From Eubacteriales Family XIII. Incertae Sedis bacterium (lineage in GTDB: Bacteria; Bacillota; Clostridia; Peptostreptococcales; Anaerovoracaceae), in NCBI GenBank assembly GCA_031277015.1, contig JAISLZ010000089.1, forward strand, positions 1 through 32,119: 32,119 bases of DNA. Reading direction: 5' to 3'. The notes below the pieces were generated by a model. The model did no database searches. It worked only from the letters and a program-made list of their open reading frames with translations, and was not told the origin of the DNA. Positions 1 through 9,507 of the stretch are shown piece by piece. The stretch's first letter is position 1, and the number at the start of each line of letters is the position of its first letter. The position numbers and the translations under genes were made by a program.

Positions 1-2
1 TT

Positions 3-1085
3 GCAGCGTGGATCAGGATAGCCTGTTTCTGGGGGCTGGTTGCGGCATTAGTACTGGCGCTCAACAGCATCATCGGCATCGGTGACGACAAATATGACAA
101 CAGAGGCCGGATAAGCTCGTTCTACAGGCAACCGGAGGATACCATCGATGTGGTATTCATCGGCGCCAGCAGCATGTATCGCGGCTGGTCGTCTATGATG
201 GCTTGGCATGAATACGGCATTACTTCATACGCGTACGCCACATCGGCCCAGCCTGCCGCCGCTTGCCAATTTATCATCAAAGATGTCCTGAAGACGCAGA
301 GCCCCAAGGTATTCGTGCTCGACCTGCGTTCATACCGCGGCAATCCAGAGCCGACGGACAGATATATCACAGGCGCGATACGGAAAGTGACGGACAACAT
401 GCCGTTTTCCCGGAACAGGATAGACGCTATAGACTATATGCTCGATTCGATAGGGATAGAGACAGGCAACAGGAATCTCGACTACTATTTCAGCTTCCTT
501 CTATATCACAACCGCTGGACGGAAGGCAGGGAGGCGTTCGATATCGGACGCGACATATACAACAAGACACAGGGCACGCGTATCGGCGATGAGATATTCG
601 GAGTGTACGATTTTCCGGTCGACAAACTATCCAAGCCTACGGACAAGGCCGCGCCCCTGCCCGAAAAGATAGAAGAAAACCTGACCGATCTGCTGAATTT
701 CCTGAAAGAAAGCGATACCAAAGCGACATTCCTGTTGTTGCCGTGCCTGGTATCTGAAAACGACAGGGAACTTTTCAATACCGCTGAATCCATCATTGCC
801 AAAAACGGTTTCTCGTATTTGAACCTGATGGACAGCACGTCAGAGATGGGCATAGACTACAAGACCGATTTTTACGACAAAAAGCATATGAACGTATATG
901 GCATGGACAAGAGCACACGCTTCATTTCCGAATATCTAATACGCGAATACGGGCTTTCCGACCACCGCGGCGACCCGAAATATTCGCTTTGGGACGATGC
1001 CTACGAGGAATACGTATCCCAGATGAAAAGTTATATCGAGGGAAAGGGCATAACGCCCCCTACTTCCCTTGAAGGCGTCCGATAA
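3..1085 (+). CDS. Membrane-anchored SGNH/DltD-like protein, 5' truncated
   Basis: The reading frame is open from the window edge, so the true start lies outside; a GTG at 150 is only an internal candidate. The visible N-terminus holds one hydrophobic segment (codons about 21-83), consistent with a membrane anchor. An extracytoplasmic domain follows with a GASSM block near base 165, which resembles the Ser-containing block I of SGNH hydrolases. Near the C-terminus a D-x2-H-x-N-x2-G stretch (Asp 876-878, His 885-887) resembles the catalytic Asp-His block. The overall layout is like DltD and AlgX/AlgJ-type O-acyltransfer partners. Its last 26 bases overlap the end of the opposing acyl carrier protein gene, a suggestive pairing because DltD-type proteins work with carrier proteins. 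Family assignment is by motif only, and the acylated substrate is unknown. Confidence 0.6.
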   Translation, partial: AAWIRIACFWGLVAALVLALNSIIGIGDDKYDNRGRISSFYRQPEDTIDVVFIGASSMYRGWSSMMAWHEYGITSYAYATSAQPAAACQFIIKDVLKTQSPKVFVLDLRSYRGNPEPTDRYITGAIRKVTDNMPFSRNRIDAIDYMLDSIGIETGNRNLDYYFSFLLYHNRWTEGREAFDIGRDIYNKTQGTRIGDEIFGVYDFPVDKLSKPTDKAAPLPEKIEENLTDLLNFLKESDTKATFLLLPCLVSENDRELFNTAESIIAKNGFSYLNLMDSTSEMGIDYKTDFYDKKHMNVYGMDKSTRFISEYLIREYGLSDHRGDPKYSLWDDAYEEYVSQMKSYIEGKGITPPTSLEGVR

Positions 1086-1287
1086 GCGCCATGATCGACT
1101 CGGCAGAGCTGAAATTCTCCGGATTGATTTCGGATACCGGTATATTCACATTGAACGACTCGTTGATTTCAGGGACCATTATGACGATATCAAACGAATC
1201 AAGGACGCCGCCGTCCACGAGATCTTTTTCTTTCGCAAAGTCCACATCCGGACGAATATCGTTTAATATTCTGAGCAGTTCTTCCAT
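1060..1287 (-). CDS. Free-standing acyl carrier protein
   Basis: This is a 75-residue acidic protein with the phosphopantetheine site LDSFD; Ser31 is the expected attachment residue. Its size and the helix pattern around LDSFDIVIMVPEI fit the PP-binding family. The LDSF form and length resemble DltC-type carriers more than the fatty-acid AcpP, whose motif is usually DSLD. It is the last gene of a three-gene operon, starting 3 bases after the stop of the CitE-like gene, and its 3' end overlaps the convergent SGNH gene. No adenylating ligase or phosphopantetheinyl transferase is visible in the window, so the loading partner is unknown. I infer that it carries an acyl group for cell-surface modification. 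Confidence 0.85.
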   Translation of the reverse strand: MEELLRILNDIRPDVDFAKEKDLVDGGVLDSFDIVIMVPEINESFNVNIPVSEINPENFSSAESIMALIGRLQGK

Positions 1288-1290
1288 CTT

Positions 1291-2193
1291 TCAATTACCT
1301 TCCTTTGCTTTCACAAGTTCAATAAGTTCCGTAATCCATTCGGCTCGGCGCTGCATAGGTGGGCCGATCATGCGCTCCCCAAGCATAATGCACAACCCCC
1401 CCCCTGAACGAATGTTCTTCTGCCGTTTTATTGCATCCGTTATGGCCTGTGCCCGTTCCGCTTCCTCCTTCGACGGGGTGAAACATTTGTTGATGATGTC
1501 GATATGGCGCGGGCTGATAAGCAGTGCGCCTCCGAATCCGAGTTCAAAGCCCTGTTCTTTTTCCCTTTTCAAGCCTTCAATATCGTGGAGGTACAGGTAC
1601 GGCGTATCGATGGGTATGAGGCCCGCACTGCGCGCCGCCATAGCTATCATCGCCCGTGGCGTGAAATGAGCTACGGGAGGATCGCCATATGTGCCGTGCA
1701 GATCCCCGAGGAAGTCGTCTCCACCAAAGCACAGAGCCACAAGACGGGTATTGCCCCTAAGTATTTCCGACAGGTTAAGTACCGCGCCGGTCGTTTCAAT
1801 GAGAGGCGCGAGCTTGAAATGCCCGGCAGCTATGCCGTGCGCGTTTTCCTTTTGCGTCAGCAATTTCTCGAAGAAGACGATGTCATTTCTGGACGTAATC
1901 TTAGGAGGCATAAATCCTGTGATATCCTCATGCATACCGCATTCGATATCACGCAACAGCTCGGGGCTATCCATAGCGTTCGTGCGTATGAACACGGTGG
2001 AGCCTTTAAATGCCCGGTCGTCGATATAGCCCTTCAGTATCGTACGCGCTTCATCCTTCTGCTCATCGGGCACAGCATCCTCAAAATCCAGGATAAGGGC
2101 ATCCGCTGCGCTAGCCAAGGCTTTCTCTATAAATTTACTGTTATTCGCCGGGACGAACATCATGCTGCGCAAGAGCATCTTCTTCGACGTCAT
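1291..2193 (-). CDS. CitE-like HpcH/HpaI-family lyase
   Basis: About 300 residues of the CitE/malyl-CoA lyase TIM-barrel family. Visible family features are SMMFVPANN at the N-terminus, LDFEDAVP, the Arg in VFIRTN, the Glu in PLIETTGAV and a GGDDFLGD metal-site segment. Family members cleave or form 3-hydroxy-acyl thioesters such as citryl-, malyl- or citramalyl-CoA/ACP. An in-frame ATG exists at 2208, but the Shine-Dalgarno-like GGAAAGG is correctly placed for the ATG at 2193, which I chose. The gene lies between a MaoC-like hydratase and an acyl carrier protein, not with the citrate lyase alpha and gamma subunits, so citrate fermentation is unlikely. I infer aldol chemistry on a thioester, possibly on the adjacent carrier protein. 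Confidence 0.82.
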   Translation of the reverse strand: MTSKKMLLRSMMFVPANNSKFIEKALASAADALILDFEDAVPDEQKDEARTILKGYIDDRAFKGSTVFIRTNAMDSPELLRDIECGMHEDITGFMPPKITSRNDIVFFEKLLTQKENAHGIAAGHFKLAPLIETTGAVLNLSEILRGNTRLVALCFGGDDFLGDLHGTYGDPPVAHFTPRAMIAMAARSAGLIPIDTPYLYLHDIEGLKREKEQGFELGFGGALLISPRHIDIINKCFTPSKEEAERAQAITDAIKRQKNIRSGGGLCIMLGERMIGPPMQRRAEWITELIELVKAKEGN

Positions 2194-2214
2194 TTCATAC
2201 CTTTCCATATAGTA

Positions 2215-2694
2215 TCAATCACTGCCGGCCTCATCATGGATCCCGCTCTTAACAAGTACATGCCGACGAAATCTGATTACCGCCTCATCTTTCTGGTTGA
2301 ATCCCGTCGTTTCGACATATACCACCCCACGATCGGGTTTAGACGATGATTTTCTGACCGACAACACCTCTGTTTCCGCGCAGATGGTATCTCCGATGAA
2401 TACGGGCGCGAGGTGTTCGACCTTTTCATAGTCGAGATTCGCAATAGCCTTACCGCTTATGTCATTTACGGTCATACCTACGACTATGCTGAACACGAAC
2501 GTGCCTACGACGAGGATTTTTCCGTGCTGCCCGTTTTTCGCGTACTCGGTATTTGTATGGACCGGATGCCAATTCATGGTGAGCAATGAAAAGATATTGT
2601 TATCGCTTTCGAATATCGTCTTTGACGGGGCATGCTTTACAAGTTCGCCCTCTTTAAAATCTTCAAGGTAATTTCCAATCAAATTAACATGCAT
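2215..2694 (-). CDS. MaoC-like (hot-dog fold) acyl-thioester hydratase
   Basis: A protein of about 159 residues with a MaoC/hydratase-2 pattern: FSLLTMNWHPVHTNTEYA matches the N-x-HPxH active-site region, followed by a GTFVFSIVVGM helix and hot-dog strands ending in FRRHVLVK. MaoC proteins add water to, or remove it from, enoyl thioesters. The upstream in-frame ATG at 2724 is rejected because GGAGGA (2701-2706) sits about seven bases before the ATG at 2694. It is the first gene of the MaoC-CitE-ACP operon; its stop lies 21 bases before the chosen CitE start. MaoC-CitE pairs are known from mesaconyl/methylmalyl-CoA metabolism, but the ACP and surface-gene context here differs. Substrate unknown. 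Confidence 0.8.
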   Translation of the reverse strand: MHVNLIGNYLEDFKEGELVKHAPSKTIFESDNNIFSLLTMNWHPVHTNTEYAKNGQHGKILVVGTFVFSIVVGMTVNDISGKAIANLDYEKVEHLAPVFIGDTICAETEVLSVRKSSSKPDRGVVYVETTGFNQKDEAVIRFRRHVLVKSGIHDEAGSD

Positions 2695-2727: not shown

Positions 2728-2880
2728 CTACCACATCAGGTCCCACCTTGCCTGTAAATCCGTAATAGGCAACAGCGTCAATGCCGGCTCCGGTTCCGGC
2801 ACGCGCTCAGGTTACAGCTCCGGCTCAGGTTCCGGCTCCGGTTCCGGTTCTGTCTCGGGTTCAGGCTCGGGTTCGGGCTC
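2728..2880 (-). repeat. Pro-Glu coding microrepeat interrupted by a stop codon
   Basis: Alternating CCN GAR codons encode the C-terminal Pro-Glu tail at 2815-2880. A TAA lies at 2814-2812, yet the same frame continues with PERVPEPEPA and then a short non-repetitive tail to TAG at 2730-2728. The repeat DNA therefore spans both sides of the stop. Slippage or point mutation inside the repeat is the simplest explanation. Confidence 0.7.
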
Positions 2881-4440
2881 ATACGGGAAATATTCCGGTT
2901 TATCGTAGCGCTCCCATACCAATTTGATATTCATATGGATAACGTCTATAAATACGTTCTTATTAAGGATATCCGCGAGATCATCTGCGAATATCACTGG
3001 CCTGATGACCGGATAATCGTCTTCATCCCACGCTATGAACTGAGCGGCCCTGACCATATTGATGAATTGGTTTCCCTCCACTTTCAGATTTGTCACACCC
3101 TCACCAGAAATGCCATGGTATTTATTCATTACATCCTGAATGATATTGCCCTTGATCAGACTGTCCTGCCAATACATTGCACCGATTGCGCTCGCGTATG
3201 TGTTCTGGATGTCGTTGTTCAGGACGCTGATATTTTCATGAGGATAATTGTACGAGTACGTATGCGACCCAACGGCTCGCGGCAGATCCCGAAACACGCA
3301 GTTCTTCACCACCACGTTGAGGCATGGGGTCTTGTCATATTTGATGTACGGGACATTGATCCCGCCGGTTCTGAGGTCGGGCGTATCGATGTTGATAGCC
3401 TCGTCGCTCTTGCTGGTAGCGCGGCTGTCGCCGATAAAATCGCATCCCGAAATCGTCACATTCCTTGAACCGTTCACCTCTATCCCGTGACCGTTTCTGA
3501 TCCCCTGAAAATTAACTCCCGTGACCGAGATGTTTTTTGCATGCGGGATGACGGCGCCATATCGGTCAGAGACGCCCATCATGTCGATTATAGCGCCGCC
3601 ATACCCAATAATCGCTGAATCGTGAACCCCTTCATATCCGACATACCCACCCTTATACTTACCGAGCTTGCTGCCCGTATATTTCAAAGCCGCTCGGGCT
3701 TTGGAAGATGCGCAGAAATGAAATACCGTTTTGGCAGGGCTCAATTTGGATGTATTCGTGTTGTTGGAGTTTTTTATATATACGCCGTTCGACAGGATAA
3801 TTTTCGTATTGGATGGAATATATATAACGTTCGTGACGCTGTACGTCCCTGCGGCCAGGGTGAGCGTACCGCCACCACGTTTTTCGAGATCTTCGACATA
3901 GGAGCGTAGCATATAGTAGTGCTCCGTATATTTATTGTAAGCCGCGTTTTTCGTATAAGCTGATGCGGGCAAGGGCTTCGTCGCCGCGTTCACCACATAG
4001 CTCGGCCTTTTGACCGTGACCTTGCAGGTGTATACCTTCGCCTTCTTATCCGTCTTGCGTTTGAACATGGCGGTGATGGTGGCAGTGCCGTACCTGATCG
4101 CGGTCACCTTGCCGTCTTTAACCGTAGCGACCGACTTTGACGAGGATGTCCATACGACTTTCGGGTAATCCATTACGGTCTTGGTCTTTTTTTTGCCATT
4201 TTTGTCCTTATACTTGACCTTCTTCTTCTCCGTTTTTTTCAGGTTGATGACTTTCAGAGTGAAAGCCTTGCCCGCAGTCACCGTCTTCTTCTTGTAGTTT
4301 AGCCGTAAAGTCTTTGAAGCAGAAGATGACGCCTTCCTAACGCTCTTTTCCGCGAAAGATTCCGCCGGTTGAATCATAAAAGTGGATATTAATGTTATTG
4401 CCGCTATCACGCAAACAAGTCGTCTTGCCTTCTCGCCCAC
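2812..4440 (-). CDS. Secreted Big2 domain plus parallel beta-helix protein with Pro-Glu tail
   Basis: A 542-residue exported protein. Residues 1-30 form a signal peptide (basic start, hydrophobic core, cleavage likely near ESFA). Residues about 45-145 are a Lys-rich bacterial Ig-like Big2 domain, shown by WTSSSKSVATVKDGKVTAIRYGTATITA. Residues about 160-515 carry short repeats of the right-handed beta-helix type (NVTISGCDF, NISVLNNDI, SLIKGNIIQD), as in pectate-lyase-like and NosD/CASH proteins. The tail is about 24 residues of Pro-Glu repeats. The start is GTG at 4440 with AAAGG six bases upstream. No catalytic residues for a lyase can be assigned. It may bind or cleave a surface or environmental polysaccharide. 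The Pro-Glu tract continues in frame beyond the stop (see findings). Confidence 0.75.
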   Translation of the reverse strand: MGEKARRLVCVIAAITLISTFMIQPAESFAEKSVRKASSSASKTLRLNYKKKTVTAGKAFTLKVINLKKTEKKKVKYKDKNGKKKTKTVMDYPKVVWTSSSKSVATVKDGKVTAIRYGTATITAMFKRKTDKKAKVYTCKVTVKRPSYVVNAATKPLPASAYTKNAAYNKYTEHYYMLRSYVEDLEKRGGGTLTLAAGTYSVTNVIYIPSNTKIILSNGVYIKNSNNTNTSKLSPAKTVFHFCASSKARAALKYTGSKLGKYKGGYVGYEGVHDSAIIGYGGAIIDMMGVSDRYGAVIPHAKNISVTGVNFQGIRNGHGIEVNGSRNVTISGCDFIGDSRATSKSDEAINIDTPDLRTGGINVPYIKYDKTPCLNVVVKNCVFRDLPRAVGSHTYSYNYPHENISVLNNDIQNTYASAIGAMYWQDSLIKGNIIQDVMNKYHGISGEGVTNLKVEGNQFINMVRAAQFIAWDEDDYPVIRPVIFADDLADILNKNVFIDVIHMNIKLVWERYDKPEYFPYEPEPEPEPETEPEPEPEPEPEL

Positions 4441-4701: not shown

Positions 4702-6033
4702 ATGCGACATGCACAAAAAAGCTTATTCCGATTCATCGCGGGTAGCGCGTACCGCTTCGTCATGAAGCGCAGCCCTATGCTAGGTAATATCATACGTACA
4801 TTGCTCAACCAGATTAAAAAATCGCGATATAACAGGTCATATCCGCATGCCACCGACAAGAAGTTGATGGTATTCATGTCTTTCCAGGGCCGCAGATTTG
4901 ACGATACCCCTAAGGCCATCTACGAGTATATGAAGTCGCGTAAAAAATATGACGACTTTCGATTCGTCTGGGCTTTCCGCAATCCTGAAGATCATAAAGT
5001 CCCCGATCACGATGGCAGAACTACCATCGTAAAATGGCCGAGCGTGGCATTTTTGCAGGCGCTTAGCGAAGCGGGATATTGGATATCAAACAATCGTGTA
5101 CTGCCGTACGTATACCCGAGGGACGATCAAGTATACGTGCAGTGCTGGCACGGCACGCCTCTGAAACGGCTAGGCCACGACCTCAAAGAAACCACGAACG
5201 CCATCTATTCATTGAAAGACCTTCTGCACAAATATGACATGGACGCGATGAAGATGAAATTTTTCGTCTCACCTTCCGCATACGCGACAGAAAAGTTCAT
5301 ATCAGCCTTCGACCTTACGGGCAAGGGCAAGGAGGGCGCTATCCTCGAGGTCGGCTACCCGCGCAACGACCGCATAGTCACGGCAACAAGGGAAGATCGC
5401 GCGGCCGCGTTCAAAAACCTAGGTATACTGGAAGACTCCGGGAAGAAAGTTATCCTCTACGCGCCTACATGGCGCGAAGATCAATACGGCTCCACCGGAT
5501 ATACATATCGACTTGGCCTTGATTTTTCCAAACTCCTCAACGCGCTCGGAGACGACTACATATTTATCTTCAGGGTGCATTACTTCATTTCAAATTCGTT
5601 CGACTTTTCATCATTTGGAAGCCGCATTATCAACATGAGCGAACATGACGACATCAACGACCTCTATATCGCGTCTGACATGCTCATCACTGACTATTCG
5701 TCCGTATTCTTCGATTACGCTAATACGGACAAACCAATTATTTTTTACATGTACGACCTTGACGAGTACCAAGACAAGGCACGTGGATTCTACATCAATC
5801 TGGACGAGTTGCCCGGCGATATAGTCATGGAGGAACGATATCTGTCAGAAGCTATAAAGCGGGCCTCGAATCCGGACGCTTACGCCGCTGCCTACGATGA
5901 AAAGTACAGAGCGTTCAAAGCGAAATACACTTACCTTGACGATGGAAGAGCCACGGAACGCCTCGTAGATAGAATCTTCGCCGACGATCTTCCAATAGTA
6001 TCAGCTACACCATATCCTGTCCACAAGCCTTGA
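4702..6033 (+). CDS. CDP-glycerol:poly(glycerophosphate) glycerophosphotransferase (TagF/TagB-like)
   Basis: A 443-residue peripheral membrane GT-B-like enzyme that transfers glycerol phosphate from CDP-glycerol onto a teichoic acid or related polymer. Diagnostic motifs are CWHGTPLKRLG (His150, general-base candidate), EVGYPRND (216-223), LYAPTWRE (252-259), FRVHY (His293, the second conserved TagF histidine) and TDYSSVFFDY (330-339), which binds the donor phosphates. A basic N-terminus (residues 1-45) may contact membrane. An in-frame TGA at 4690 rules out a longer start; the closest Shine-Dalgarno, GAGAGG at 4681-4686, is rather far. The gene converges on a paralogue and their 3' ends overlap by 33 bases. 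It could be a primase or a polymerase; sequence alone does not tell. Confidence 0.88.
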   Translation: MRHAQKSLFRFIAGSAYRFVMKRSPMLGNIIRTLLNQIKKSRYNRSYPHATDKKLMVFMSFQGRRFDDTPKAIYEYMKSRKKYDDFRFVWAFRNPEDHKVPDHDGRTTIVKWPSVAFLQALSEAGYWISNNRVLPYVYPRDDQVYVQCWHGTPLKRLGHDLKETTNAIYSLKDLLHKYDMDAMKMKFFVSPSAYATEKFISAFDLTGKGKEGAILEVGYPRNDRIVTATREDRAAAFKNLGILEDSGKKVILYAPTWREDQYGSTGYTYRLGLDFSKLLNALGDDYIFIFRVHYFISNSFDFSSFGSRIINMSEHDDINDLYIASDMLITDYSSVFFDYANTDKPIIFYMYDLDEYQDKARGFYINLDELPGDIVMEERYLSEAIKRASNPDAYAAAYDEKYRAFKAKYTYLDDGRATERLVDRIFADDLPIVSATPYPVHKP

Positions 6034-6075
6034 CGTAGCGCCACCGTCAAGGTAAGTATATTTTTCTTTAAAGGC
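5911..6075. repeat. Long imperfect inverted repeat formed by convergent paralogue ends
   Basis: ACTTACCTTGACGATGG at 5929-5945 is the inverted counterpart of CCACCGTCAAGGTAAGT at 6041-6057, with 16 of 17 matches and about 95 bases between. Weaker similarity extends the arms to roughly 5911 and 6075. Both arms encode the same C-terminal peptide region (KYTYLD) of the two TagF-like proteins. On the + strand the second arm is followed by a T-rich run at 6061-6065, so the fold could also assist termination. Confidence 0.75.
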
Positions 6076-7281
6076 GAGATATTTTTTATCCGGCGAAAAC
6101 GGAGCGTCTGTTTCCAGAGCTCCACGGATGGCGGGCGCAAGTTCCGTATCCTCCCTGAGTATGTGGCCAGGCAATTCCGCGATGTCGAAATAGAAACCTC
6201 GCGTCCTGTTTGCGTATTCTTCAAGGTCATACATATAGAACAGCATAGGTTTCTCCAAAATGGAATAATCGAAAAACACCGACGAGTAATCCGTGAGTAA
6301 CAAATCGCTTATAAGATACAGGTCGTTGATATCGTCGTAATCCGAACAGTCGTAGATGAACCCATCGTACTTCGCGAAGTCGAATGATTTCATGACAAGA
6401 TAGTGCACGCGGAACAATATGATGTACTTATCTCCTATTTCATCTCGAAGTTTGTCGAAGTCTATCTTTAAATCATACGTGTAGCCAAACGCCGGGTCGA
6501 ATTGGTTATCCCGCCATGTTGGTGCATAGAGTATCACCATTTTTTCACTTTTAGCAGGCAATCCGACGGCGATTTTTATCCGTTCCTTTTCGTCGGGCGT
6601 GGAATGCCCGGATTTCACCGCGATCGCGAGCCTGTCGTTCCTTGGATATCCGACTTCAAGAATGCGGTCCATCTTTCCGTACTTTGCTAAATTCCACGCC
6701 GATGCGAATTTTTCCGAAGCGAAAGCGGACGGAGACAGAAGCCACGTAATCTTCTTCGCGTCATTGATGTATTTATTTAGAATTTCCATCTGTGAGTTCA
6801 TCGCGTTATCCGATTCTAGTATGTCGAAACCAAGCCGCTTCAAAGGCGTACCGTGCCAACATTGAAGATACACCTGTTCATTACTCGGCCATACGTATTC
6901 AAACACGCGAAAATTGACGACCCAATATTTTGCGCGAATTAGCTCGCACCTATGTGCGTTGGTTTTGTATTTGACAATGCTCGTATTAGGATTCTTGAGC
7001 AGATGGACGTACTTCTCAGGTTCTTTGAATACCCATACATAGCTGTACCCCGCAAACTCCGGACGGGAGATCATGTATTCGTATACGACCTTGGGCGTAT
7101 CGCTATAAGCCCGTCCATTGAACGATACAAACAGTACCCTCTGCTCGCCCAGCCTCACAAACAACCGCGTCAAATAATATATGGAGCTATTAAAAATATA
7201 TATGCCCAAACGCAAGCATTTGCGGAAGCGCACATTGCGCTTCGCCAAGCCTCTCGCCCATGTTTTTATTTCGTCAATCAT
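6001..7281 (-). CDS. CDP-glycerol glycerophosphotransferase, second paralogue
   Basis: A 426-residue TagF/TagB-like enzyme with the same motif series as its convergent neighbour: CWHGTPLKRLG (His143), EVGYPRNDR, LYAPTWRDNQ, FRVHY, TDYSSVFFDY and the terminal KYTYLDGG. The N-terminal 45 residues are basic and hydrophobic, fitting membrane association. It starts 40 bases after the stop of the LtaS-like gene and no promoter is obvious in that gap, so the two are probably co-transcribed. The coding sequence looks AT-richer than the sugar genes to the right. The two paralogues probably add glycerol phosphate to different acceptors or act as primase and polymerase; that division is inference. Confidence 0.88.
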   Translation of the reverse strand: MIDEIKTWARGLAKRNVRFRKCLRLGIYIFNSSIYYLTRLFVRLGEQRVLFVSFNGRAYSDTPKVVYEYMISRPEFAGYSYVWVFKEPEKYVHLLKNPNTSIVKYKTNAHRCELIRAKYWVVNFRVFEYVWPSNEQVYLQCWHGTPLKRLGFDILESDNAMNSQMEILNKYINDAKKITWLLSPSAFASEKFASAWNLAKYGKMDRILEVGYPRNDRLAIAVKSGHSTPDEKERIKIAVGLPAKSEKMVILYAPTWRDNQFDPAFGYTYDLKIDFDKLRDEIGDKYIILFRVHYLVMKSFDFAKYDGFIYDCSDYDDINDLYLISDLLLTDYSSVFFDYSILEKPMLFYMYDLEEYANRTRGFYFDIAELPGHILREDTELAPAIRGALETDAPFSPDKKYLAFKEKYTYLDGGATSRLVDRIWCS

Positions 7282-7320
7282 AGTCCATATACGTTCTCGT
7301 TATCATTAATAATATCGCAA

Positions 7321-9507
7321 TTAGTGTCTGTTGTCGAGATAGAAGAAATCCGCCACCCGGTGCTTAGGGTCGAACAGGTTGTTGTATTCGAGCATGAAAT
7401 ACTCGTGCAGCAGCTTGTCCTGCGGTGTGGAAGCCTCCGCTTGGTTCTTGTTCGGGTTTGCGTGCGGATCGCGCTGTATCTTGTCCTCCGTGTTGTAGAA
7501 GGCGCCGTTCCTATCATAGTGGCCAAATGCCGTGATACACGGTACTTCCTCGAAAAGGCCGAGCAGATACTTGTTGTACGCGGTCATTTCTATCCCTCCC
7601 GCCTGGAGCGTAAGGGACGACAGATAGTTCATGCTCACACGCTCTATCGTCTTTTCCTCTATATCGAAATTAGCCCAGATAAAGAACGGTACACGGTATC
7701 GCTTCATCAGGTCCTCCGACGAAAGCTTGCCCATCGGAGCACCGAGCACCCTTTCATAAAACGGCACGGGAAGGGTAGCCTGATGGTCGCCAAAGAACAC
7801 GATTATCGTCGGGTCGCCGGTATTCCTGAAATACTCGACAAGCTCCCCCGTAGCCCGGTCACTCTCGTGCATCAATGACATGACCTTCCCTATTTCGTTA
7901 TGCTCTCCTATCTCGGATGAAGTCAACTCACCCAACGGAGTGATGGTGGGGGTGAAGTTCTTGTAATCGTTCCTGTAGTTCCCATGGTTCTGCATCGTTA
8001 TCGTCCATAGGAATACGGGCGCATCCGACTTTTTCTTATACTTCTCGTACAGAGATATGAGCTTACCGTAATCGGACTCATCCGATATATACTTCCTTAC
8101 CATCCGGGGGTCTTTGAAGTCGGTTTCGTCCAGGTATTTGTCGAACCCCAGCATCTCGTAAGCCCTCGGCCTGCTGTACCCGTTTCTGTCGAACGGGTGA
8201 ACGGCCACATTGCCCTGGTAACCCTGGTCCTTCAGAGTGCTCACGAGCGACGGCTGCGGAGATTTTATGTATAGCTGATAGGGGCTCGCGTTGACAGGGA
8301 CAAAGGCGAGCGAATTGCCGGTGAAAAACTCGAACTCCGAGTTGGCGGTGCCGCCCCCAAGCCCGGACGAGTAGGCCCATCCCTTGATCGTATCCTCCGT
8401 AAGGCTGTCATAAAAGGGCAGCATCGGCTCGTTCGTCTCTATGTGCTCGCCGATATTTGCAACATCGGTGAAACTTTCGTTCATGATGGTGATCACATTG
8501 GGCTTTTTGGCCCTCTCCGAGCCAGGGTAAGCCTTGTCGACCTTCTCAGCTATCCCAGCCGTTAGCTTCTGAACGGAGTCCGCAGAATAGCCTTTGGGTT
8601 TGTCCACGATGCTGATCTTCGCGCTGCGAATCAAGGAGAGAAGGCTCCCGTTCCTGTTGTACCCCTTTATCATCGGGTCGAATGTGCTCACCTTGATCCC
8701 TGCTACACCGTGCCTCCAGGCATAGTGGTCCGAAAGAACAAGCAAGTTGATGAGGCCGAGCCATCCTACGCAAAATACCGCGACAAGCGCCACACGAGCC
8801 TTCCGCCCGAAACGCTTACCTATCCTTAGCTTGCTCGTAACAACGCATATTGAGAAGATCGCCACGGCAAATATATACCCGCGGAAATCCAGGTCGTAGG
8901 TGAAATCCCCCAGCATCTCCGCGCCCGTGCCGAAGTTGGACAAGTCGGAAAAAATCAGGGGGCTGCCACGAAATATATTCGCGAAGTAGGCGATATATCC
9001 AAAAGTGCAGACAATCCCTGTGCCGACGAAAAGGCCCGTCCTTATCGCTCCCGTAGCAATAGTTCCAATGAAACACAGGAGATATATGATTGCCATGTTT
9101 AATAGGATTTTGAACAAAGCTAAATCGAAAGCGTGCGTATGGAACAGATACTCCAGAGCAAAGAACGTCGCCAAGGGTACGGCAAAGCAGCAAACTATCG
9201 TGAATATCCTGTTCCACTTCTCGTTCAGGACGTTTGGGACGACGGAAATGACGGCAACGAGAGCCAGGATGAACATCGTCCCCCCGGCCTTCCTTATCGC
9301 GAACCACGGCGTACCGTCGCTGTAGTGGTTAGTGTAGTAGTCAGGATGCATCCAGTATATCACCGCGAATACGGCGATGGCGCACAGGAACGCAATACGC
9401 AGAATCAACGACCACCGGCGCTGCGGCCATCCGTCCAGAAATAACTCTTTGATACTTTTATTTTTGAATCCCTTTGCGAATATACTTACTCTATCAAGCA
9501 CAAACAT
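7321..9507 (-). CDS. LtaS-type lipoteichoic acid synthase (phosphoglycerol transferase)
   Basis: A 728-residue polytopic membrane protein with an extracellular sulfatase-fold domain. Hydrophobic segments lie near residues 35-53, 77-93, 101-119, 131-154, 158-178, 210-226 and 238-259. The catalytic domain begins near 335: Glu344 in IMNESF is a metal ligand, Thr387 in GGGTANSEFEF is the expected nucleophile, and Asp574-His575 in FFGDHQA complete the metal site. LtaS enzymes polymerise glycerol phosphate from phosphatidylglycerol; relatives decorate sugars with it. The start is supported by GGAGAG just upstream. The protein is somewhat longer than typical LtaS and has more membrane segments than the usual five, so it may be a phosphoglycerol transferase I-like relative. 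It heads a unit with the downstream TagF-like gene. Confidence 0.85.
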   Translation of the reverse strand: MFVLDRVSIFAKGFKNKSIKELFLDGWPQRRWSLILRIAFLCAIAVFAVIYWMHPDYYTNHYSDGTPWFAIRKAGGTMFILALVAVISVVPNVLNEKWNRIFTIVCCFAVPLATFFALEYLFHTHAFDLALFKILLNMAIIYLLCFIGTIATGAIRTGLFVGTGIVCTFGYIAYFANIFRGSPLIFSDLSNFGTGAEMLGDFTYDLDFRGYIFAVAIFSICVVTSKLRIGKRFGRKARVALVAVFCVGWLGLINLLVLSDHYAWRHGVAGIKVSTFDPMIKGYNRNGSLLSLIRSAKISIVDKPKGYSADSVQKLTAGIAEKVDKAYPGSERAKKPNVITIMNESFTDVANIGEHIETNEPMLPFYDSLTEDTIKGWAYSSGLGGGTANSEFEFFTGNSLAFVPVNASPYQLYIKSPQPSLVSTLKDQGYQGNVAVHPFDRNGYSRPRAYEMLGFDKYLDETDFKDPRMVRKYISDESDYGKLISLYEKYKKKSDAPVFLWTITMQNHGNYRNDYKNFTPTITPLGELTSSEIGEHNEIGKVMSLMHESDRATGELVEYFRNTGDPTIIVFFGDHQATLPVPFYERVLGAPMGKLSSEDLMKRYRVPFFIWANFDIEEKTIERVSMNYLSSLTLQAGGIEMTAYNKYLLGLFEEVPCITAFGHYDRNGAFYNTEDKIQRDPHANPNKNQAEASTPQDKLLHEYFMLEYNNLFDPKHRVADFFYLDNRH

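Follow-up and report, generated by a model that had tools for sequence, protein, structure and literature searches.

What would a Dlt-like apparatus place on a surface polymer if the operon of its carrier protein encoded a C–C lyase and a hydratase? This question is raised by the left-hand end of a 32,119-nucleotide stretch of DNA (hereafter, the window), which is an entire contig (G000:C18; JAISLZ010000089.1) from an Eubacteriales Family XIII bacterium. Three minus-strand genes lie here: a MaoC-type hydratase of the mesaconyl-coenzyme A (CoA) hydratase/RipB kind (2215..2694; 159 amino acids (aa) from ATG), a CitE-like C–C lyase/aldolase of the malyl-CoA/citramalyl-CoA lyase superfamily (1291..2208; 305 aa) and a DltC-like acyl carrier protein (ACP; 1060..1287; 75 aa). 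The intergenic gaps are only 6 nucleotides (nt) for CitE/MaoC and 3 nt for ACP/CitE, and thus the trio forms a tight operon. Converging on it from the plus strand is the gene for a candidate membrane-anchored SGNH (DltD/PatB-like) acyltransferase (1..1085), the final 26 nt of which overlap the ACP gene tail to tail; the left edge of the window cuts through this gene, leaving a reading frame (3–1085) that is open at the contig start. Teichoic-type genes follow beyond the trio (4702–9507). An earlier note on this DNA had described the tight operon, its overlap with the SGNH gene and the proximity of teichoic acid genes, all of which are borne out by the open reading frames, gaps and Pfam matches, by a sister species and by substitution rates. 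With confidence that is evenly balanced, we propose that the locus encodes a Dlt-like trans-membrane acylation system, comprising an MBOAT protein with its own FxYxxF tail, the SGNH protein and the DltC-like carrier, which is coupled to a MaoC-CitE acyl-thioester module.

Completion and conservation of the cluster

The earlier note had anticipated a DltB-like MBOAT to the left of the window, and one is indeed present. A search with the MBOAT of the sister species located a further contig of the same genome (C74; 6128 bases), which terminates ~150 bases past the end of an MBOAT gene and shares, at its 3′ end, 8 identical bases with the 5′ end of the window. Taken alone, this overlap is weak; nevertheless, the join is convincing by frame, length and gene order: it yields an unbroken, in-frame SGNH protein of 397 aa, equal in length to that of the sister species, and the order GNAT-like, MBOAT (527 aa), SGNH and then, facing these, ACP, CitE and MaoC. 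The MBOAT gene lies directly upstream of the SGNH gene in both species, with a spacing of only 36 nt in G000, which supports a Dlt-like export role. A scan for promoters and terminators gave no signal above chance level.

Both host genomes (G000 and its sister species, G001) are incomplete metagenome-assembled genomes from uncultured gut bacteria of a single genus. In the sister species (G001:C158; 9092 bases), the MBOAT and SGNH genes are followed by ACP and CitE on the minus strand, and then by a divergent MaoC-CitE pair. The order of SGNH, ACP and CitE is therefore the same, and the 26-nt overlap between SGNH and ACP is kept identically; the two species share 75% identity in SGNH and 83% in ACP. 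Between them, the ratios of non-synonymous to synonymous substitution rates (dN/dS) are 0.08 for MBOAT, 0.08 for SGNH and 0.12 for ACP, so the set has been maintained under purifying selection. Together with the retained order and overlap, these low values (for MBOAT, SGNH and ACP) argue that SGNH, ACP and CitE are real genes, and not chance reading frames. Of 198 genomes of the family, only two carry the MaoC, as does one of 391 sampled from the class, and it thus looks like an accessory acquisition. No canonical start codon follows the stop in the sister-species MaoC frame (L031, 3320–3345), and a GTG with a good ribosome site lies out of frame; the missing start is possibly an assembly error.

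The export apparatus

Among PDB matches, the best solved relatives of the MBOAT are DltB proteins (E 2e-26). It has a WHG histidine at position 353 and terminates in FIYQQF, an FxYxxF acyl-shuttle tail; there is no separate DltX microprotein in the cluster, the motif being the C-terminus of the MBOAT itself. The protein scores 143 against an equivalog cut-off of 375 for TIGR04091, and its catalytic histidine, tyrosine shuttle motif and adjoining SGNH protein place it among the MBOAT-SGNH polymer acyltransferases in the broad sense. For the SGNH protein, neither Pfam nor NCBIfam gave a match, the DltD family included. Its predicted structure (mean pLDDT 57) has the SGNH hydrolase fold, with Z scores of 13.4 to TesA (Escherichia coli thioesterase I) and 11.3 to PatB; this assignment is based on a second structural alignment, which does not separate DltD from PatB, Foldseek alone having returned no match under E 0.001. 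The carrier retains the serine of the DSF motif (within VLDSFD). It falls just below the Pfam cut-off for PP-binding (20.2 against 20.8 bits), and its best model is DltC (42 bits; cut-off 68); D-alanyl carrier proteins are among its best PDB matches. Moreover, it belongs to a family of ACPs from ligase-ACP-MBOAT-SGNH operons in the same bacterial family.

The FxYxxF motif resides on DltX in Dlt systems and is fused to the MBOAT in those that use acyl-CoA, and MBOAT-SGNH systems other than Dlt have been described as having no carrier protein (PMC12148441). The window set combines the fused tail with a carrier. One could therefore envisage a Pat/Alg-like O-acetyltransferase working on acetyl-CoA, with the carrier belonging instead to a citrate-lyase-like complex with CitE. 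The fused tail and the structural match to PatB would suit such an arrangement, as would the top curated score of the CitE-like protein, which is to citE. Nonetheless, we regard it as quite unlikely: that score is only 164 bits against a cut-off of 443, there is no CitF in the cluster, and the carrier is DltC-like by score. Nor do the neighbours of the window CitE resemble those relatives' loci in which short and 500-aa proteins flank CitE, and the locus was not assigned to citrate lyase (CitDEF). Furthermore, the hybrid of fused tail and carrier recurs at G000:C106 and G001:C19, and in the relatives G036 and G028, where MBOATs with similar tails are accompanied by a DltA-like ligase, ACP and SGNH, so the tail does not imply the use of acyl-CoA. 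What is unusual at the window is that the ligase has gone from the cluster, and that CitE and MaoC occupy the operon of the carrier.

The MaoC and CitE enzymes

The CitE-like protein matches HpcH_HpaI in Pfam (123 bits), and the hydratase matches both MaoC (71.6 bits) and MC_hydratase (66.9 bits). The active sites are intact: Arg75, Glu138 and Asp165 of CitE are conserved in 81 of 81 homologues, and the Asn41-x4-His46 dyad of MaoC in 83 of 83. This dyad aligns with the second domain of 4e3e and 8hgn (beta-methylmalyl-CoA dehydratase), whereas 1q6w has an aspartate, and the best PDB match for CitE is a malyl-CoA/beta-methylmalyl-CoA lyase. As judged from these alignments, the dyad and the structural matches point to mesaconyl/beta-methylmalyl chemistry. 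A single-sequence CitE scan of the genome contigs gave no match.

Enzymes of these families also serve the breakdown of itaconate and mesaconate, and RipB (143 bits) and RipC (137 bits) rank among the top NCBIfam matches. Additionally, more distant homologues on plasmids (≤48% identity) have CoA-transferases, acyl-CoA dehydrogenases and dicarboxylate transporters as neighbours; of the four plasmid homologues in the MaoC tree, three have annotated surroundings, with CoA-transferases, acyl-CoA dehydrogenases or CoA ester lyases among them. A pair devoted to dicarboxylic acid catabolism, and beside an acylation operon by chance, is nevertheless improbable. Both Rip scores are far below the curated cut-offs (340 and 375, respectively), and no RipA-type CoA-transferase adjoins the trio; three CoA_transf_3 genes were found on other G000 contigs and none in G001. 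In the phylogenetic tree, moreover, the window MaoC falls within a single clade of 83 glycan-linked proteins (support 0.91, long stem), apart from the plasmid homologues, and these glycan-linked relatives are spread over many phyla.

A surface-glycan module

The neighbourhoods of the MaoC relatives were read at loci chosen by MaoC similarity: a scan of 84,980 species found 223, of which the best 80 were retrieved, giving 77 loci with a usable gene call, the window included. CitE/HpcH is clustered with MaoC in 74 of the 77, a DegT aminotransferase is present in 53, and many have RmlA, RmlB or FdtA. A hexapeptide transferase of a NeuD/PglD cluster occurs in 61 loci, and within three genes in 56; this cluster is a BLAST component that may take in other hexapeptide transferases, and two of its representatives match NeuD at 147 and 129 bits, below the cut-off of 160.8. 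Wherever neighbours were read, then, MaoC-CitE sits in surface-glycan clusters, in relatives from many phyla. The pair was part of what the earlier note had presented as a possible new system; it proves not to be special to it, being a glycan module of wide distribution, in most cases accompanied by a NeuD-type N-acyltransferase and lacking an ACP, that most simply makes an unusual acyl-CoA for the N-acylation of aminosugars.

In ~12 loci (including L066, L048 and L053), a gene resembling methylmalonyl-CoA decarboxylase/carboxyltransferase adjoins MaoC-CitE, which fits a propionyl/methylmalonyl origin. Often, an additional short HpcH/HpaI protein (RipC-like) is encoded there too, along with an ATP-grasp gene. 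In chemical terms, O-polysaccharides are already known to contain N-malyl groups (PMC3210612); we found no open-licence paper that describes MaoC, CitE or HpcH in glycan clusters or ties MaoC-CitE to N-malyl groups, nor one on carrier-dependent MBOAT-SGNH systems beyond Dlt or coupled to MaoC-CitE. There is no close MaoC-CitE DNA in E. coli genomes, which left no structurally characterized O-antigen to match.

In G000 itself, there is no convincing NeuD: the best match in the genome reaches 32 bits against the cut-off of 160.8, and none lies in the cluster. The carrier-MBOAT-SGNH set is thus the only linked consumer of the acyl group.

Loading of the carrier and the proposed mechanism

The earlier note had expected an AMP ligase in the cluster; this was not found, either in the window cluster or on C74. 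A DltA-like ligase occurs instead in a second, complete Dlt-like operon, MBOAT-SGNH-ligase-ACP, which is present in both genomes (L167, G000:C106, 6486–11301; L168, G001:C19). Its MBOAT carries the fused shuttle tail FIYGRF. We searched G000 for a second DltA-like ligase and found none. In amino-acid-activating domains, an aspartate binds the amino group; in an alignment read by eye, the second-operon ligase has a valine at this position and an arginine nearby, suggesting that it may activate an acid other than an amino acid.

This ligase offers a serious rival explanation, though one that we consider somewhat unlikely: the window would encode an ordinary second Dlt-like system, its carrier charged in trans by the C106/C19 ligase with that enzyme's own acid, and MaoC and CitE would be neighbours in a surface-glycan island that serve another step, such as sugar N-acylation. 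Both genomes with the window cluster have the ligase, and it was found in none of three further members of the genus (incomplete genomes); the window ACP is 53–56% identical to the C106/C19 ACPs; the ligase of the relatives sits with ACP, MBOAT and SGNH; and, at the Lachnospiraceae locus L066, MaoC-CitE-NeuD and a Dlt-like set complete with ligase are no more than 10 kb apart. Set against this, ACP and CitE are separated by just 3 nt and share an operon, and the sister-species ACP still follows CitE on the same strand, despite the moved MaoC. In addition, G000 has no convincing NeuD-type acyltransferase, and, as the second operon has an ACP of its own, another carrier bearing the same acid would be superfluous. 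L066 and L053, both from Lachnospiraceae, hold the nearest relatives of the window MaoC in the tree (support 0.76), and at L066 MaoC-CitE and an SGNH-MBOAT-ACP-ligase set share one 20-kb stretch.

In the coupled system that we favour, CitE would condense or cleave, and MaoC hydrate or dehydrate, a C4–C5 dicarboxylic thioester (malyl/fumaryl or beta-methylmalyl/mesaconyl), as their families and conserved active sites suggest. The acyl group would then reach the phosphopantetheine of the carrier, by being made there, by transfer from CoA or through the DltA-like ligase of the second operon. By analogy with Dlt and Pat chemistry, the MBOAT would use its WHG histidine to move the group from the carrier to the tyrosine of FIYQQF. 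Finally, the serine of the SGNH protein would accept it and esterify an outer polymer; the glycerol-phosphate polymer that the TarF-like enzymes make is a possible acceptor. We tentatively suggest that the carrier receives a hydroxy- or unsaturated dicarboxylic acyl group built by a C–C lyase and a hydratase, rather than by an adenylating ligase, and that this group would give a teichoic-type polymer extra negative charge; this more specific claim is, in our view, possible but the less probable outcome.

Several observations weigh against such coupling. Nearly all of the MaoC-CitE relatives have no ACP nearby, which suggests that these enzymes probably use CoA esters, and the window cluster has no loading enzyme of its own; since no DltA-like ligase occurs outside the second operon, loading of the carrier is the weakest step of the proposal. 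The arrangement of ACP, CitE and MaoC has been found in just two species of one genus, both represented by incomplete genomes. The conservation of SGNH with the trio, which the earlier note had named as a test, holds for ACP and CitE in the sister species, but only within this genus. MaoC is not always in the operon of the carrier: in the sister species, it and a second CitE form a divergent unit. This species also has a NeuD-like match elsewhere in its genome (102 bits).

We weighed the GNAT-like gene that precedes the MBOAT as a possible loader from CoA to ACP and set it aside, as its score falls short of the Pfam cut-off and a survey of 99 genomes gave no convincing relative. At a separate locus (L096, 2–5420), a different MaoC (PhaJ-like, with an aspartate dyad) directly adjoins ACP, MBOAT and SGNH, and a ligase-like gene lies upstream; this is an independent case of a hydratase adjoining a carrier-MBOAT-SGNH set.

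Neighbouring genes

Two TarF-like CDP-glycerol glycerophosphotransferases, which could supply the acceptor polymer, are encoded at 4702..6033 (plus strand) and 6001..7281 (minus strand), and are followed by a membrane sulfatase-domain protein of lipoteichoic acid synthase-like build (7321..9507, minus strand; PF00884, 110.7 bits) that has no NCBIfam equivalog. Between the trio and these genes, the minus-strand product of 2812–4440, with a Big_2 domain, a right-handed beta helix and C-terminal E-P repeats, is probably a secreted protein. The remainder of the window (9708–31870, minus strand) is a long gene run, mostly for carbohydrate catabolism, including an FGGY-type kinase, a phosphotriesterase-family protein, an ABC transporter, a 2-hydroxyacid dehydrogenase and an FMN oxidoreductase. 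C74 encodes an 882-aa CDP-glycerol transferase (L137, 761–3409, minus strand), the first ~70 residues of which resemble the N-terminus of the second CitE of the sister species (E 4e-8); judging by this similarity, the stretch is probably a fused remnant of a lost CitE gene that adjoined the MBOAT.

Significance and comparison with known systems

D-alanylation makes the Gram-positive wall less negative, whereas the proposed dicarboxylic system would, if real, have the opposite effect: a surface polymer of the host cells may bear an acid group that has no known precedent in Dlt-like systems. An acid-adding machine of this kind would alter the interpretation of many MBOAT-SGNH-carrier operons in gut bacteria. 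The MaoC-CitE pair, which is apparently undescribed in the surface-glycan clusters of many phyla, is itself a candidate supplier of N-malyl and similar groups for O-polysaccharides.

The window shares with DltABCDX a DltC-like carrier, a DltB-like MBOAT, an SGNH partner, a tyrosine shuttle motif and nearby teichoic-type genes; it differs in having neither DltA nor a separate DltX in the cluster, in an SGNH protein with no family match to DltD, and in the presence of MaoC-CitE in the carrier operon. Systems for PatAB/alginate-type O-acetylation likewise pair an SGNH protein with an MBOAT bearing a fused C-terminal FxYxxF motif, but are described as carrier-free (PMC12148441). Ligase-ACP-MBOAT-SGNH operons (G036, G028 and G000:C106) have the same MBOAT, SGNH and ACP families and the same fused tail, yet retain a DltA-like ligase and have no MaoC-CitE. 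In the MaoC-CitE-NeuD/PglD modules of O-antigen, capsule and other glycan clusters, the MaoC is of the same clade (~60–77% identity) and the CitE of the same family; there, an adjoining hexapeptide N-acyltransferase takes the place that carrier, MBOAT and SGNH occupy in the window. Finally, the RipABC/Ict-Ich-Ccl route of itaconate degradation and Mch-Mcl of the ethylmalonyl-CoA pathway employ the same enzyme superfamilies with conserved active-site residues, whereas the window enzymes score far below the curated cut-offs, have no CoA-transferase partner in the cluster and lie in a surface-glycan context.

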